Assembly (NCBI GenBank): GCA_945861065.1
Contig: CAMASI010000009.1
Span: 1-64,000, forward strand
Direction of reading: 5' to 3'
Origin: Klebsiella pneumoniae
Lineage (GTDB): Bacteria > Myxococcota_A > UBA796 > GCA-2862545
DNA: 64,000 bases
A model generated the notes under the pieces. That model did not search any database. It worked only from the letters and a program-made list of their open reading frames with translations, and had not been told where the DNA came from. This document shows positions 39,967 to 51,290 of this stretch, piece after piece. Position numbers and translations under genes: made by a program. How positions within the stretch are numbered: position 1 is the first letter of the stretch; each line of letters begins with the position of its first letter.

Positions 39967-42900
39967 ATGCTCGGCTTCTTGCTCCTGGCTACGACCCCAG
40001 CTGCCGCCCAGGACATCATGGTTTGCTACGCGGACCTTTACCAATGGGACGTGGAGGCGCACCTCTTGGCCTCCGGCATGTTCACCAAGGTGACCATGAC
40101 CGATTGCCGATTCACCACCCCCACCCTCGCCACGATGCTGACCTACGACGGCATCCTCGTGTATTCGAACTACGCGTTCTCGAACGCCACGACGCTCGGC
40201 GATCGGCTTGCGGACTACGTGGACGTGGGGGGCGGCGTGGTGCACGCTGCCTTTTCCAACGTTTTCGGCGGCACGCTTGAGGGTCGCTGGAACACCGGCA
40301 ACTACAAGGCCTTCTCGTACGGCAACAACACCTCCGGAACATTGCGCTCCATCGTCCCGATCGATGCGCTGCATCCCATCCTGGCGGGAATCTGGAAGCC
40401 GGTCGTTACCTTCAATGGCGGTTCCTCGACGTACCACGGCACGCCCTGCACCAAGACCGCGGGTGCCACGCTCGTAGCCAATTGGTCCGACGGGTCTGCG
40501 CTGGTGTCGGAACACGTGCCGAGCGGCGTCGGCGCGGTCGTCGGCCTCAACTTCTTTCCGGCGTCATCGGTAGCGCGCGGCGACTTCTGGACCGATTCGA
40601 CCGATGGCGAGGCCCTGCTCGTCAACAGCTTGCTGTGGGTCACCGACGTAGACAAGGACCTCGACGGGTTTTCGGTCGGCGGCGGTGGCGATTGCGACGA
40701 CTTGGACCCTACCATCAACCCGGACGCGGCCGAGGACTGCTCGGATACCCTGGACAACGACTGCGATGCCACGATCGACTGCGCAGACCTCGACTGTGTC
40801 GGCCTGTCCGCCTGCGACGAGGTCTGCGATGACGGTACCGACGAAGATTTCGATGGGCTGATCGATTGCGATGACCCCGACTGCATCACCGATTTCGCCT
40901 GCATCGAACATTGCGACGATGGGCTGGACGACGACTACGACGGCCTGATCGACTGCGCTGACCCGGATTGTATCGGCGACCCGAACTGCGTCGAAGTGTG
41001 CGGCGACGGGCTTGACAACGACTTTGACGGCCTGAAGGACTGCGCCGACGGAGATTGTTTCGGGGATCCCGCGTGCGTGGAAGACTGCGACAATGGCATC
41101 GACGACGACTTTGATGGCCACAAAGACTGCGCGGACGCCGATTGCGCTGGCGACCCCTTCTGCGCCGAGGTTTGCGACGACGGGTTCGACAACGACCTAG
41201 ATGGACAGACCGACTGCACCGATTCGGACTGCTGGGAAGAAGCCTTCTGTTGCGACGACGATCTGGACGGCTTCCTCGACAGTGAGGGTAGCTGTGGCGG
41301 CGCCGATTGTGACGACCACGCCTTTGATGTGGGCGACCTCGACGGCGACCTCGTGCCCAACACGTGCGACAACTGCTTGTCCACCGTCAACCTCGATCAG
41401 GCCGACAGCGATGGCGACGGCGCGGGCAATGTGTGCGACGCCTGCCCCGGCTTCGACGATGAGTTGGACCTCGAAGGGGACAACATTCCAGATGGATGCG
41501 ACAACTGCCCGGAGGTGACCAACCCGGCGCAAGCCGACGGCGATCTGGACGGTGCTGGCGACGTGTGCGACCTTTGCCCCGGTATCGATGACGGAATCGA
41601 CGACGATGGCGACGCAGCCCCCGATGGGTGCGACAACTGTTTCGACCTGTTCAATCCAGGCCAGGAGGACGACGACGGCGACGGCTTCGGCGACGATTGC
41701 GACACGTGTGCAGGTTTCCCAGACAGTGAGGATCTGGACGCCGACCTCGTCGCCGACGGCTGCGACACCTGCCCGCTCGACTTCGACCCGCTCCAAGAGG
41801 ACGAAGACGCCGACACGGTCGGTGACTTTTGCGACAACTGCCCGGGCGAAGACGACCGAATTGATGCCGATGGCGACTCGTTCCCCGACGCGTGCGACAA
41901 CTGCCCCTTCGCCAGCAACCCGCTGCAGAAGGACACCGATCTGGACGGCGTCGGCAACAACTGCGATGCCTGCCCTGGGTTTGACGATGCCGACGACGCG
42001 GATGTGGACTTGGTGCCCGACGGCTGCGATCTGTGCCCCTTGGTCGCCGATCCGGACCAGTTTGACACCGATCTGGACGGCGCGGGCGACGCTTGCGACG
42101 TGTGCGAGGGCGGAGACGACTTTATCGACGGCGATGTCGATACGGTTCCCGATGCCTGCGACAACTGCGAAGACGACGTCAACGAGGACCAGTCCGACGC
42201 AGACGGCGACGGTTTCGGCGACGTGTGCGACAGCTGCGCGGAGGGCGACGACACGGTCGATTCCGACGACGACGACATCGCCGACGCCTGCGACAACTGC
42301 CCCGTCAACCGCAACCCCAGCCAGAAGGACGACGACGTAGACACTGTCGGCAATGCCTGCGATGTGTGTGAAGGCGGCGACGACTTGCTGGACGTCGATA
42401 CCGATCTGGTGCCCGATGCCTGCGACCTGTGCCCGGACGTGGCCGACGACCAGACCGACACCGACTTCGACGCAGTCGGCGACGCCTGCGATCTGTGCCC
42501 CGGCGAGGACGATGGCGACGACGTCGACGGAGACTTAGCGCCGGACGCTTGCGATGTGTGCCCGGACCACTTCGACCCCGACCAACTCGATGCCGACTTC
42601 GACACCATTGGCGACGTGTGCGACAGTTGTGAAGGTCAGGACGACACGCTGGACGCCGATGCCGATGATGTGCCTGACGGCTGCGACGGGTGTGACGATG
42701 TGCCCGATCCGGACCAGGCCGATCTGGACGTGGACGCCGTGGGCGACGCCTGCGACAACTGCCCGCTCGACGTCAATCTGGACCAGGCCGACGCCGACGG
42801 CGACGTGGTGGGCGACGTGTGCGATCTCTGCGATGGCGGCGATGACCGGCTCGATGTGGACGCGGACCTTGTCCCCGATGCTTGCGACAACTGCCCGTTG

Positions 42901-45900
42901 GACCCCAACGAAGACCAGGCGGACGGCGACGGGGACGGCGCTGGCGACACCTGCGACACGTGCCCGGATGGGGACGATTCGGCAGATGCCGACCTCGATC
43001 TGGTCGCAGATGCTTGCGACAACTGCCCGATCGACGTCAATGCGGACCAGCAGGACGACGATGGGGACGGCGTCGGCGACCCCTGCGACGTGTGCGGTGG
43101 ATTCGATGACTTCGACGATGTGGACGTCGATGGAACGCCGGAAGGCTGCGACAACTGCCCCGGTGTGACCAACGACCAAGCGGACGCCGACAGCGATTTC
43201 GTGGGCGATGTTTGCGACCAGTGCGCGGACTTCGACGACCTCGACGACTTCGACGTGGACGCGGTTCCTGACGGCTGCGACAACTGCATCGACGTGGCGA
43301 ACGACCAAGCCGACCTCGACCTCGACACGGTCGGCGACGCCTGCGACCAATGCCCCGGGTCCGATGATCTGGCCGACGTCGACGTGGACTCTGCGCCGGA
43401 CGATTGCGACCTGTGCCCAGACGTGCCCGACGACCAATCCGACGCCGATTCCGACTTCGTGGGCGACGCTTGCGACTTGTGCGACGGCTTCGACGATGCG
43501 GCGGACGACGACCTCGACACCGTCGCCGATGGGTGCGACAACTGCCTTGGTGTCTTCAACGACCAGTCTGACGCCGACTTCGACGGCGCGGGCGATGCTT
43601 GCGACGTGTGTCCCGACGGTGACGACTTCCTCGACACCGATGGCGACGGCGTTCCGAACGCCTGCGACGCCTGTGACGGTGACCTGAGCGATGACGACGG
43701 CGATACCGTGGCCAACGCCTGCGACGCCTGTCCCGGCTTCGACGACTTCGACGACGCCGATGGCGACACGGTGGCCGAGGGCTGCGACGCCTGCCCGGGG
43801 CTGGCAGACGACCAGGCCGACGACGATGGCGACAGTGTGGGCGACGTGTGCGAAGCCTGTCCCGGCTCCGACGATCTCGATGATGTGGACGCCGATGGGG
43901 TGGCCGAGGGCTGCGACAACTGCCCGGGTTTGGACAACGATCAGGCCGACACCGACGTCGACGGCGTGGGCGACGCCTGCGACGACTGTATCGGAACGCT
44001 CGACGATGCCGATAGCGATGGCGCTGCCGATGCGTGCGACAACTGCGTGAGCGTGGCCAACGACACCCAGGCTGACGAGGACGGGGACGGAGCGGGCGAC
44101 GCCTGCGATTCCTGTCCCACACTGTTCGACGACGGCGCAGACCTCGATGGAGACAGCACCGCCGACAATTGCGACGTGTGCCCGACGTTGGGATGTGCCT
44201 CCGCCTGTGGCGACGTCGATAGCGACGGGGATGTGGACATCGCCGACCAGGCGCTGCTGTCCACCAAGATCCTGACCGGCATTGTGGTGCCGTCGTATTG
44301 CCAAGCCTTGGCGGGCGACGTCAACGGCGATGGGTCGCTGTCGGCCTCCGATGTTGTCGTGTTGACCGACGCGATATTGGCGGGTGGGCCACTGTCCTGC
44401 CGCGAGCAGCAGGCCGACACCGATGCCGACACGTTTGGCGACGAATGCGATCTGTGTGCGGGTGGGGACGACCGGTTGGACGCGGATGCAGATGGGTCGC
44501 CGGACGATTGTGACCTGTGCCCGTCGGGTGTGGACACCGAAGACGTAGACGGGGACATGGTTCCCGACGCCTGCGATGTGTGCGACGGCTTCGATGACTT
44601 CGACGATGTGGACGCCGATGGTTCACCCGATGGCTGCGACGATTGTGACGGGCCGCTCGCCGACGGCGACGTGGATGGCGTGGCGGACGCCTGCGACACG
44701 TGCCCAGGGCTCTTCGACCCGGGTCAAGCGGATCGGGACGGCGACGGTGCCGGTGACCCCTGCGACGGCTGCCCGGACGCCGGTTGCGCCGAGTTGTGCG
44801 GGGACGCCGACCTCGATGGCGACGTGGATGTTGCCGATGCCTCGATGCTGTCGATCAAGCTGCTGACGGGCGTGGTCGTGCCCACGGCGTGTCAGAGCAA
44901 GGCAGCGGACGTGGACGGCGACGGTGCATTGTCGGTCGCGGATGTGGACGTGCTCGCCGACTTCCTGGTTGTGGGCACGCCGCTCGCGTGTCGCGACAGC
45001 CAGTCCGACCTTGATGCCGACAGCGTGGCCGACGACTGCGACGTCTGTGTGGGTGGCGATGATCGGGTCGAAGGGGATGGCGATGGCGTGCCCAACGATT
45101 GCGACGCGTGCGATGGCGGCGACGACCGGCTCGACGACGACGCCGACGGGTTCCCGGACGATTGCGACAGCTGTCCGGGCTTCGACGACGCGGTGGACGA
45201 CGACGGCGACGGCGTGGCCGACGGTTGTGACGATTGTGGCCCGCTCAGCCCCGACACGGACTTCGACGGGGTCGCAGATGCCTGCGATGTGTGCGTAGGT
45301 GGCGATGACCTCGTCGAAACCGACGGTGACGGCGTGCCTGACGATTGCGACCTATGCCCTGACGAAGACGACACGGTGGATGCAGATACCGACAGCGTTC
45401 CCGACGGGTGCGACCTGTGCGACGGCTTCGACGATCTCGAAGACGCCGACCTCGACACGAACCCGGACGCTTGCGACCCGTGTCCGGCTGAACCCGACGA
45501 AGCGGACGACGATTCCGACGGCGCGTGGACCTGCATTGATTGCGACGATGGCGATTCCGCGCTCAACCCCGACGACGTGGACAGCGACGGGTATTCGACC
45601 TGCGACGGCGACTGCGCAGACGGCCTGTCGGCCATCCATCCCGGTGCGGCGGAGGTGCCCAACGGCATCGACGACAACTGCAACGGGCTGACCGACGAAG
45701 GCGGGGACGCGGACGGCGACGGGTACACCGTGGCGGGCGGCGATTGCAACGACCTGGACCCGGCGGTTCATCCCGGTGCCGAGGAGGTGTGCAACGGCGC
45801 GGACGACGACTGCGATCTGGTCATCGACGAGGGCACGGAGTGTGTCGACGACGACGGCGATGGGTACTGCGAAGGCCCGTTGTGCACCGACGACACGCTT

Positions 45901-46704
45901 CCGGGCGACTGCGGCGACAACGATCTGTCGATCTACCCAGGCGCGTTCGAGGACCTGTCCAACGGCGTGGACGACGATTGTGACGGAGAGGTGGACAACG
46001 GCACCCCGGATGCGGACGGCGATGGTTGGGGCGACGAGGTGGACTGCGACCCGCTGGACCCGACGGTGTACCCTGGGGCGCCCGAACTGCTCGATGGCCT
46101 CGATAACGACTGTGACGGGCTCATCGACGAAGGCACCGACGTGGTGGACGATGATGAAGACGGGTTCACGGAAGAGGCCGGCGACTGCGACGATGGCGAT
46201 GAAACCGTCAATCCGGCTGCGCCGGATTTGCCCAACGGTCGAGATGACGATTGTGACGGCCTGATCGACGAAGACACGACGTTGTCGGACGATGACGGCG
46301 ACGGGCTCAGCGAAAACGACGGGGATTGTGACGACGGAAATGCCGACGCACACCCCGGAGGTGTCGAGGTGCTTGACGGTGCGGACAACGACTGCGACGG
46401 CCTGATCGACGAGGACTTGGACGACCTGGACTTGGACGGTTGGACCGTGTTGGGCGGGGATTGTGACGACAATGACGGCTGGGTCAACCCCGGACGTGCC
46501 GAACTGTGCCTGGACGGGGTCGACAACAACTGCGATGGCGCGGTGGACGAGACTTGCGCCGACACGGCCGAAGCCCTGGACTCCAAATCGACGGGCACCT
46601 GCGGCTGCGGCGATTCCAGCGGCGATTCCGGCGGCGACACGGGCGCCGCCTGGTTGTGGGTAGGCCTACCCTTGCTGTGGCGGCAACGGCGGCGCCCCGC
46701 GTAG
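39967..46704 (+). CDS. Giant Asp-rich calcium-binding repeat surface protein
   Basis: This 2245-residue exported protein has a signal peptide ([15 protein letters not shown]) and a flavodoxin/ThuA-like N-terminal domain (about 20-225: [27 protein letters not shown]). One MopE-like unit and about six CxDGxDNDxDGxxDCxDxDC units follow (to about 425). Several dozen thrombospondin-type-3-like repeats fill about 430-1840 (CDNCP...DQxDxDxDxxGDxCDxC). Two dockerin-like modules interrupt them at about 1414-1478 and 1611-1676. MopE-type repeats (about 1845-2205) and a C-terminal anchor [33 protein letters not shown] close it. It should bind many calcium ions at the cell surface. No enzyme motif was seen. 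Confidence 0.87.
41360..45480 (+). repeat. Coding tandem array of thrombospondin-type-3-like repeats
   Basis: Short units of roughly 60-130 bp with GAC/GAT-rich codons and TGCGAC signatures repeat through most of the giant gene. Long antisense open frames over this stretch are a by-product of the biased codons. Such arrays can expand or contract and are easy to misassemble. Confidence 0.75.
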
Positions 46705-46777: not shown

Positions 46778-48289
46778 ATGCGCAACACGGCGCTCTGCGG
46801 TCTGGTCATCGGCTGTACCCCTGCCGCGTCTGACGGCGACACCGGTGCCCCAGCGGACATCGAGGTCAGCCCGCTGTCCATTCAGTTTCCGGGTCTAGTT
46901 CCGGGCGCGTCTGACACACGTTCGTTCTCCATAACCAACGGGGGCGACGATTCCCTAGACGTGGACGACCTGGTGTTGGAAGGCGAGGCGTTCGCGTTGT
47001 CGCAGGTGGCTGGCACAACACTCGCCCCAGGTGAGGCCGTCTACATCGACGTGACCTACACCGCCGGCACAACGGGAACCATCGGCTCGGTCACGGTGAA
47101 CAGCACCGACGAAGATGAGCGCACCATCGTCGTGGCACTTTCCGGCGACGCAGACGTGCCCGACATCGCCTTCGAACCCGCTTTCCCAGAGGTGAGCGCC
47201 TTTGTGCCTTGCGATGGCGTTGAGGGTGTGGGTCTACGCAACGATGGCGGTTCCGATCTAGTCGTCGATTCGATTCTCTGGGAAGGGGATCCGGCCATCA
47301 CATTCAACGGCCTGCCCCCACTCCCGTTGACGCTTGCGGCCGGAGATTCAGCCAATTTCGAGTTGTGGCTTGACGGTTCCACCGAGGGGAATTCCGAAGG
47401 GTCGATTCGTCTGATCTCGAATGACCCGGAAGGTGACCTCGTGGTCTCAGTCACTGGCGATACGAGCTATGCGACCACCGTTACCGACAGCTTCCTGGTG
47501 CCTGCCGACGCGGCGGTGGACATCATCGTGTTGGTGGATACGAGCCCATCGATGGGCCTGAGTTCCGCTGAACTCGGGGCTGAATTTAGCGATTTCATCA
47601 TGGTGATCAATGCCGTCACTGCTGGGTGGCGGTTGGGTGTGGTGAACTCGCTGGACGGTTGTTTCAACCAAGGGGTACTCAGTCCTGATGTGCCGGACTA
47701 TCAGGAATTATTCAATACGGCGGTGACGACCTTTGAACCGCACATTCTGCAGGAGAGCCTGCTTCTCCTGGCCGACGTTGCGCTGGAAGACACGGGTCCT
47801 GGCCTGTGCAACGACCAATTCTTGCGTCTAGGCGGGTTACTCCATATCATTGTGGTGTCCGACGAACGTGACCTCTCGCCCGGTTATTGGCTAAACTGGG
47901 TCGAGGGCTATCGGCAGTATGTGGCTGCACCAGAACTGCTCACGGTGAGCGGTGTGGTCAATGTGTACAATACCTGCGGCAGCTTGAATGGCGCCTCGGG
48001 TTACCTGGAAGCAATTGCCGAAACGGGCGGTGTCACACTCGATATCTGTGATTCGGGCTGGGGATCTCAAATTGACCAACTGGCCGATGCCTCATTGCAA
48101 GCGCTGACACACTATCCGTTATCGGATTTGCCGGATCCGCAGAGCCTGGTCGTGCGGGTGGACGGTGTGGGCGTCACATCGGGCTGGATTTACGACGAAG
48201 TAGAAAACGAGGTCGTCTTCGAAGAAGTTCTGTTTGATGGAGGCGAACTGATCGAGATCACGTTCGGCGTTCCTTCGGCGTGTGAGTGA
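46778..48289 (+). CDS. vWA-domain lipoprotein with choice-of-anchor N-terminal domains
   Basis: This 503-residue lipoprotein (leader NTALCGLVIGC) has two immunoglobulin-like choice-of-anchor D domains (about 28-225; IQFPGLVPGASDTRSFSITNGG, VNSTDEDERTIVVALSGDA). A von Willebrand A domain (about 245-440) begins IIVLVDTSPSMG, so the DxSxS metal-binding MIDAS site is intact. Cys pairs (DGCFN, GLCND, NTCGS, DICDS) suggest disulfides. It ends with a short beta module (GWIYDEVENEVVFEEV...IEITFG). It is probably a surface adhesin or protein-interaction subunit. ATG 46778 has GGAGGA upstream. Confidence 0.83.
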   Translation: MRNTALCGLVIGCTPAASDGDTGAPADIEVSPLSIQFPGLVPGASDTRSFSITNGGDDSLDVDDLVLEGEAFALSQVAGTTLAPGEAVYIDVTYTAGTTGTIGSVTVNSTDEDERTIVVALSGDADVPDIAFEPAFPEVSAFVPCDGVEGVGLRNDGGSDLVVDSILWEGDPAITFNGLPPLPLTLAAGDSANFELWLDGSTEGNSEGSIRLISNDPEGDLVVSVTGDTSYATTVTDSFLVPADAAVDIIVLVDTSPSMGLSSAELGAEFSDFIMVINAVTAGWRLGVVNSLDGCFNQGVLSPDVPDYQELFNTAVTTFEPHILQESLLLLADVALEDTGPGLCNDQFLRLGGLLHIIVVSDERDLSPGYWLNWVEGYRQYVAAPELLTVSGVVNVYNTCGSLNGASGYLEAIAETGGVTLDICDSGWGSQIDQLADASLQALTHYPLSDLPDPQSLVVRVDGVGVTSGWIYDEVENEVVFEEVLFDGGELIEITFGVPSACE

Positions 48290-48301
48290 CCCTGTTTTTT
48301 T

Positions 48302-48306
48302 GGAGG
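48302..48306 (+). promoter_or_regulatory. Ribosome-binding site fixing the start of the interrupted MopE-like gene
   Basis: GGAGG stands five bases before ATG 48312, whose product begins with a plausible signal peptide. This supports 48312, not the GTG at 48441, as the true start of the following gene. Confidence 0.7.
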
Positions 48307-48311
48307 TCGCG

Positions 48312-51290
48312 ATGTCTGTCCTTGGTTTATTTTGGCCGGTGACCGCGCTTGCGGGCATGCGAATTGGCGACGATGGGGATCTTCAGCTCACGATCAATGA
48401 CGCAGGGGGGTGGTGTAATTAGGCCAACGAGTGCCTGCGCGTGCCCACTGTCCTCGGTGACATGGAAATCATTTTTCCCGGCACTCCGTGGCAGGACACG
48501 GCGGTGCAGTACACGCGGGCTGCGGGAGGCATCGTTGCTGAAAATGCCAACTGGAGCGTCTTGTTGGGCTGGTCGGCAATTCTTGAGGACAGGTCGACGG
48601 CAGATCAGTTCGAGGCCTGGGCGGCGTGGAGAGTCGACGACCTCAGCATCGAGCAGAGCACGCGTTGGGTGCCGGGGAGTTCCGTCGTTGAGTTCCAATG
48701 GACATTCACGAACGATGGTGTTGACCCCATTAGCGATATTTTATTGGTGCACGCCTTTGACCCTGACACCGACTGGCTGTTGACGTCGTCCTTCGATACA
48801 CTGTGCAATACGGCCGACGGATATGCTTCGTCGCAGGGTTTGTACGTGCCCACGACAATGGCGTACGGCGTGTGTGACCGCATCAACCAGGATGTGGGTC
48901 ATACCAATCCCTGGGCGACAGTACCGACCGCGGTGTATGTGGATTTCGACGGCGACCCTGTCGACGCGGCTATGCATCTCCGCACCTTTGTCGCGGCCCT
49001 TGATCCGTTGGAAAGTGTCGGGGCCACAGGGTTCCTCTTATGGGGTGATGCTGCGGTTGCTCGTGAGGCCTGGGAGGTGGCATTTGGGGCGACCTGTTGT
49101 GCGGACCCTGACGTGGACTTGGATGGCTACGACGACCTGTTGTGTGGCGGCGACGACTGCGCGCCGACGGATCCGTCCCGGTCTCCTGCGGCCGTCGAGA
49201 CCTGCGACCATGTCGACGAGGATTGTGACGGCTCGGAGGTCGGGGCCGTGGATGGCACGCTGCAATTCTACGATGGAGATGGGGATGGGGATGGTGCGGG
49301 CCCCGGCGAATTGGTGTGCCCTTGGGAGCCTAGGTGGGTAGCGACGGACACGGATTGCGACGATACCGACAACGGTATCTCCAGCTTAAGCGTTGAATTG
49401 TGTAACGGCGTGGATGATGATTGCGACGGTTTGGTGGATGAAGCCGGTGCTATGGACATCCCGTGGTCTACCGACGCGGACGGGGATGGGTTTGGCAGCA
49501 GAGTCGGTTCCGTGCTTGCCTGTCTTTCCCCTGGCGCAGGATTTGTGCCCGACGATACGGACTGTAACGACGGGGACGCGGCGATCCTACCGGGTGCGAT
49601 CGAAGTTTGCGACGATGTCGATCAGGACTGCAACGGGCTTCGCGACGATGGAATCGCTACGTTTCCGATTTGGCTCGACGGGGATGCAGATGGCTACGGG
49701 GATCAAGCCATTCCTACCTTCGATTGTGCCGTTCCGGTAGGTTGGACTGCGGTGGGTGGGGATTGTTCGGATATCGATGCGGCGATTCACCCCGATCGCG
49801 ATGAGAGCTGCAACCTGATTGACGATGATTGTGATTTGGCGGTGGATGAGCCGCCTGTCGTGGGCGGCGGCGGTGCGTACGCAGATTGGGACCTCGACGG
49901 GCACGGCGATCCAGCGGCGCCTATTGACGCTTGCGGGCCTGGACCTGGGGTGTCCCTGTTGGCGGACGATTGCGACGACACCAATTTCAGCGTTTATCCG
50001 GGTGCTCTGGAAACCTGCGACGGCGAGGATGAGGACTGCAACGGGATTGTCGATGATGGATTCGGGATTGTGGACGCATTTATCGACGCCGACGGCGACG
50101 GTTTTGGTGACGCTCCGATTGCGGCGTGTGCGTTAGGCGTGGGCATTGTGGCCGTCGATGGAGATTGTGACGATTTGGACGTAAATACGTACCCGGGTGC
50201 CACCGAAATCTGTGACCTCGCGGACAACGATTGTAATGGAATCGCAGATGATGCTGGCGTCGTTACAGCTTGGACCGACGCAGATTTGGACGGATTTGGA
50301 GACGCCTTATTGCCCGTTCTGATGCCGGTCTGTGAAGTGGGTGCTGGCACGAGCCTTGATGCGACGGACTGCGACGATTCGGACGCCTCTGTGTTCCCAG
50401 GTGCGGACGAGACTTGTGATGGCGTCGACAACGATTGCAACTTGGCAGTGGACGACGAGGCCATGGACGCGACGACCTGGTACCCGGACGCGGACGGCGA
50501 CGGAATCGGACCTGACGAGGGCGCTGTTCTGGCGTGCGAGTCGCCCGTCGGGTCCGTTTCATCGTCGGGCGACTGCAATGACGACGATGCGGACCTGTTC
50601 CCCGGCAACCCTGAGCGCTGCGACGACGCCGATCAGGACTGCGACGAAGAGGTGGATGAGGACCCAATCGATCCGGGATTCTGGTATGTAGACGGGGACG
50701 GCGATGGCTATGGTGCCGAAACCTCCGTGGTGATTGCGTGTGACGCACCCGTAGGAACTGTGGCCCAAGGGGGTGATTGTGAGGATGGGGATCCGGCCCT
50801 CAACCCGGGCACCGACGAACACTGTGACGACGTGGACGAGGATTGCAACGTGCTAGTCGATGATGATCCAGTGGATGGGGCGACCTGGTACGACGACGTC
50901 GACGGAGATGGGTTTGGCGACCCCGCATCGGCGGGAACGGCCTGTTCTCAGCCCGCGGGAACCGTTGCCGACGGTACGGATTGCGACGACGGTGACGCGA
51001 ACGCTTGGCCGGGCGCGCCGGGTTGGAGCGACGACTGCGAGCCGCTGGGTGGAACGGGGGGCAGCGGTGCTACCGCCGGTTCCGGCGGGTCCGGGGGAAC
51101 CGGCGCGACGGGAGGAGGGACAGGCGGGACAGGTGCTACGACGGGCACGGGAGCGGGAAGCGGTCTCCAAGGTGAAGAGGCGGACCCGTCAGGATGCAGT
51201 TGCGACGGGAGTTCGGGCGGACGCTCCGGCGCATGGATGCTGCTGGGAGCGCTCGGCTGGCTCGGTCGCCGAAACCGGCGCGGAACCTGA
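48312..51290 (+). pseudogene. MopE-repeat surface protein with in-frame TAG
   Basis: From ATG 48312 the frame encodes a signal peptide (MSVLGLFWPVTALAG) and 21 more residues, then TAG at 48420-48422. The same frame continues open to 51290 for over 950 codons, so one gene appears split by a nonsense codon. Without the upstream part the body has no export signal although it is clearly extracellular. The body has a beta domain (about 50-260), then ten MopE-type units (DxDGDGFGD...TDCDDxDxxxxPGAxExCDGxDxDC) and a 40-residue Gly/Thr/Ser/Ala linker. The C-terminal anchor is CSCDGSSGGRSGAWMLLGALGWLGRRNRR. GTG 48441 could restart translation, but without a leader. Confidence 0.75.

Follow-up and report, generated by a model that had tools for sequence, protein, structure and literature searches.

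The question raised by this locus is why a gene that appears to encode an exported surface protein should carry an in-frame stop at its 37th codon. The gene lies on the forward strand of the window, the whole 64,000-nt stretch of DNA that was analysed. A GGAGG ribosome-binding site, read directly at 48302–48306, stands 5 nt upstream of an ATG at 48312, and the 36 codons that follow (MSVLGLFWPVTALAG... to ...GGWCN in translation) end at TAG 48420–48422, after which the same frame stays open up to TGA 51288–51290. On the basis of sequence, profile and alignment, the stretch 48312–48419 holds the start, a leader and the first ∼20 residues of an N-terminal domain; the leader has a signal-peptide-like appearance and is without a positively charged n-region. 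The remainder of this β-rich domain, which belongs to an unnamed family, was delimited by profile search at 48423–49103, and the first in-frame GTG past the TAG lies within it at 48441–48443, leaving 949 codons to the end of the frame. The earlier note had described a ribosome site, ATG, leader and MopE-repeat body in one frame broken by a single TAG, and both the sequence and its translation bear this out.

The gene immediately upstream (46778–48289, also on the forward strand; stop TGA 48287–48289) encodes 503 amino acids with a choice-of-anchor D/HYDIN-like Ig domain at its N-terminal start. Since it ends only 22 nt 5′ of ATG 48312, the two genes are probably co-transcribed. No promoter or terminator patterns were found in 48200–48600. 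Matches to this upstream gene at E ≤ 1e-5 occur in all 21 genomes of the family, including relatives in the same-genus genome G001 with a best identity of 47%. By hand count, two of the 150 matches listed contain an internal stop, TAA in the first case and TAG in the second, and both of these matches come from genome G012.

Whether the leader and the body form one gene was judged from several lines of evidence. With a profile built from homologues, the window being excluded, the 36 residues before the TAG alone scored 4.0 bits and the downstream part about 122 bits, and the two joined scored 131.6 bits, a value matched by none of 1000 shuffled leaders and by one of 1000 random open 36-codon stretches of the window. 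When the 78.9-kb contig was scanned for codon usage, TAG 48420 ranked first among the 481 stop codons with scorable open flanks. Twelve other high-ranked stops were checked, and 11 of them are regarded as lying in shadow frames because an opposite-strand open frame of at least 343 codons covers them; at the twelfth (39779) the covering frame is 237 codons long, and the longest competing frame at TAG 48420 is 146 codons. Taken together, the profile scores, the shuffles, the codon-usage rank and the competing-frame check indicate that the leader and the MopE-repeat body belong to one gene.

The TAG does not mark the border of the signal peptide. It falls ∼20 codons into the conserved β-rich domain that comes after the leader, and homology is continuous across it; the wording that the TAG 'separates' leader and body is therefore inexact, the single broken frame being upheld and the position at a border not. 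For the alignment, 42 distinct homologous frames were taken from the fetched loci, 39 of which cover the N-terminal part, and at the TAG column these carry Ser (12), Ala (5), Pro (5), Gly (4), Gln (4), Thr (2), Tyr (2), Arg (2), Asp (2) and His (1). The column is variable, so that no special residue is kept there. The earlier note had proposed such an alignment as a check, and it shows sense codons at this position and homologues that extend through the leader, the best relatives being ∼30% identical. As the 39 frames had been cut at stops beforehand, they are unable to show a stop at this column, and the independent test is provided by searches in which stops are read. Furthermore, the distance from a conserved Trp to the motif PG[ST]P[WF] is 21 in this gene, as in the homologous loci L003 and L005 (range 18 to 26 and commonest value 22 in the 26 aligned rows with the pattern), and therefore no insertion, deletion or frameshift needs to be assumed. 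On this reading of the sequence, one single-base substitution would suffice to place TAG at codon 37.

Among the 71 genomes of the class, 41 have the N-terminal domain (motifs DxGxWN, YPGTPW and DPDQD; 48312–49103 in the window), and a profile search of 377 genomes sampled from the phylum found it in 45. In several loci that were read, it stands directly ahead of MopE-type repeats. Neither profile search matched it in G001, and no relative was seen there among frames of at least 120 codons downstream of the relatives of the upstream gene. A search of named genomes, from which records of the window's own genome were possibly omitted, returned three distant relatives of 27–28% identity, all from MAG records assigned to Deltaproteobacteria or Proteobacteria; the types of protein encoded suggest that the window itself comes from the Myxococcota. 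An AlphaFold2 model of the read-through domain, calculated with four alignment rows, was β-rich with a mean pLDDT of 54.2 and values below 50 for residues 1–61; this model is poor and thus uninformative on the TAG site.

The body (49104–51190) consists of MopE-type repeats, for which Pfam gives eight stretches of the putative metal-binding motif PF11617 with a score of 221.2 bits, and of a Gly/Thr-rich linker read directly from the sequence. This repeat is the sole part shared with MopE-type proteins, whereas for the N-terminal domain neither of the two parts searched against Pfam gave a match. The C-terminal segment (51191–51290, stop included) carries, by eye, a Cys motif, a hydrophobic stretch and an Arg-rich tail, and together with the N-terminal leader it resembles the MYXO-CTERM surface proteins as presented in the part of PMC11980579 drawn on here; unlike these, the 949-residue protein matches no NCBIfam model at E 0.1. 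Further upstream in the window, 39967–46704 encodes a 2245-residue thrombospondin-3/dockerin-type protein that ends in TAG and whose score against the cohesion protein model MtsC, 113.8 bits, stays below the cut-off of 350.

Decoding of TAG as an amino acid in this bacterium finds no support. Release factor RF1 is present (463.7 bits versus a cut-off of 423.25), and the 18 Pfam-supported genes of the window end in TAG (5), TGA (11) and TAA (2); judged from these genes, TAG functions as a terminator in this bacterium. Genome-wide reassignment of TAG was rejected in view of RF1 and of the ordinary genes terminated by TAG. No tRNA with a CUA anticodon (CTA in the gene) was found among the 43 tRNA matches of this genome, all of which were read, the assembly being 91.35% complete. 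The genome G027, in which a relative of the gene also bears a TAG, gave 39 tRNA matches, one of them weak and uncalled by ARAGORN, and the called ones include no CTA anticodon at ∼87% completeness; because the genomes are only ∼91% and ∼87% complete, loss of a tRNA from the data is possible. A suppressor tRNA for TAG was accordingly found in neither genome. Pyrrolysine at the TAG was rejected as well, as none of 58 genomes passed the cut-off for PylS (TIGR02367; best 32 bits versus 178) in a search in which one of 14 control genomes did. The likeness to pyrrolysine or suppressor-tRNA recoding thus lies in the in-frame TAG, and the difference is that neither PylS nor a CUA tRNA turned up in the searches for them.

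In this study, an ordinary nonsense allele, arisen recently through a single-base change, is considered the best explanation and the probable one. On this view, the gene would specify a MopE-repeat surface protein that is secreted, anchored at its C-terminus and fitted with the conserved β-rich domain at its N-terminus, and a single-base change would have placed TAG at one of the variable positions in the latter. RF1 should then end translation at codon 37 and release a 36-residue peptide. Full-length protein would come from basal read-through alone, and function would probably be lost. The change is likely to be recent because the 949 codons from GTG 48441 are still open, with the repeats and the anchor intact, and we infer that TAG is genuinely present in the population. 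Against this explanation, a fully intact downstream frame is also compatible with continued use of the gene, an assembly error would yield an identical sequence, and the 100 nt past the TAG have a rather good predicted fold, which a read-through signal might also show.

Broken members of the family were looked for by searches in which domain matches were kept with stops read through and counted. The 71 genomes of the class gave 56 domain rows, two of which contain one TAG each, and the 377 genomes gave 62 rows from 61 genes in 45 genomes; two of these rows contain a single TAG, and TGA or TAA occurs in no row. These two TAG-bearing rows are this gene and the relative in G027, a genome of another family, whose TAG occupies another position of the domain; no other row among the 62 has a stop at the same place as codon 37. 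The G027 frame (L127, contig C121), which contains VGGANWDT, has this single in-frame TAG of its own and ends in TGA. In a further locus (L011, contig C265 of genome G040), a frameshift immediately past the DPDQD motif breaks a member of the domain family, its two rows being one gene. Broken domain genes therefore number at least three of 61, two by TAG and one by frameshift, frameshifts being counted within the matched part. Seven loci with short MopE-type frames were also inspected; one is frameshifted, and the rest were judged by eye to be separate genes. The frameshifted one (L078; contig C7 of the window's genome, G000, ∼30.1–30.6 kb, minus strand) is a MopE-type gene that changes frame, and its sequence identifies it as frameshifted or mis-assembled. 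A preference for TAG among the stops of the domain family was considered and rejected; both stops are TAG, but TAG accounts for 0.41–0.46 of the possible single-base nonsense changes in the gene, which is chance-like.

The nonsense alleles treated in PMC7918605 resemble this case in having a single in-frame stop, an otherwise intact frame and homologues with sense codons. According to the part of that paper drawn on here, those alleles are common to at least two species, whereas the stop described here was seen in a single genome.

The alternative that survives best, although we regard it as less likely, is that the TAG entered a draft, metagenome-style consensus through a base error or from a minority strain and that the gene is intact in living cells. 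The assembly is a 147-contig draft of the completeness given above, the three named relatives are MAGs, the broken members in such assemblies have their lesions at unrelated positions, and the remainder of the gene is intact. However, stops were found inside none of the 52 ABC-transporter matches of the window's genome and inside none of the 150 MopE repeats scored there (435 candidates seen), and substitution errors are therefore not common in this genome. Seven loci with short MopE-type frames were also inspected; one is frameshifted, and the rest were judged by eye to be separate genes. The frameshifted one (L078; contig C7 of the window's genome, G000, ∼30.1–30.6 kb, minus strand) is a MopE-type gene that changes frame, and its sequence identifies it as frameshifted or mis-assembled. 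Among the options listed in the earlier note, a sequencing error and a nonsense mutation are thus the two that are best supported.

A leaky or programmed amber read-through, in which the TAG would throttle the amount of surface protein and ribosomes would pass it at a useful rate, is very doubtful. In its favour, 949 codons are open past the TAG, the variable column at codon 37 should tolerate many amino acids, and a predicted RNA fold starts 10 nt past the TAG. The 100 nt after the TAG gave folding z values of −2.4 and −2.1 in two runs, while the 101-nt stretch across the TAG gave 0.07; on a grid of 64 windows spread over the gene, z averaged 0.14 and was −2.15 at its lowest, and the predicted fold is suggestive at best as a read-through signal. 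In-frame stops are widespread in bacterial genes according to the part of PMC7918605 drawn on here, and many are under apparent purifying selection, with dN/dS below 1; the same part describes them as mostly short-lived, seldom outlasting the time scale of polymorphism within populations. No stop at the same place was found in homologues, the best of which are ∼30% identical, and the G027 TAG lies elsewhere in the domain; RF1, the TAG-terminated ordinary genes and the failure to find a CUA tRNA in this genome or G027, or PylS, also count against read-through. In Escherichia coli, read-through follows the order TGA > TAG > TAA (PMC11126739), which does not place TAG first. A more specific form of this proposal, a leaky gate at which a near-cognate tRNA would read the TAG in a few ribosomes with the help of the downstream fold, so that few cells or molecules would carry the anchored protein, is slightly more doubtful again. 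Basal read-through is possible for any such allele, with no sign of a programme here, and the earlier suggestion of programmed amber read-through finds no support in the release factor, tRNA and homologue data.

Restart at GTG 48441, giving a leaderless 949-residue protein with a role of its own, is highly improbable. The GTG lies only 18 nt past the TAG and would be within reach of a terminating ribosome; however, no convincing ribosome site was seen by eye upstream of it, and the product would be without an export signal and the first part of the conserved domain, yet would keep the C-terminal anchor. The aligned homologues run through the leader and the TAG site, and a start at the GTG alone therefore makes little sense, in agreement with the judgement of the earlier note.

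Least credible of all is the phase-variable switch that had also been put forward, since, although a G6 tract (48405–48410) ends 9 nt 5′ of the TAG, no direct or inverted repeats of at least 12 bases were found in 48250–48700 in a search that omits runs of 1–3-base units, and, read by hand, a slip of the tract in either direction fails to join the leader with the body, the frame reached by loss of one G terminating at 48783 and that reached by gain of one G stopping immediately.

A recent nonsense allele, or else a base error in the draft assembly, is thus the likeliest reading of this locus, with the former preferred. One practical consequence is that automatic gene prediction will probably give a leaderless 949-residue protein here. 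If read-through were nevertheless true, the gene would illustrate how a stop codon can gate the display of a surface protein in bacteria. For the class as a whole, the N-terminal domain interrupted by the TAG represents a recurrent secreted module that has no Pfam name in the parts scanned.
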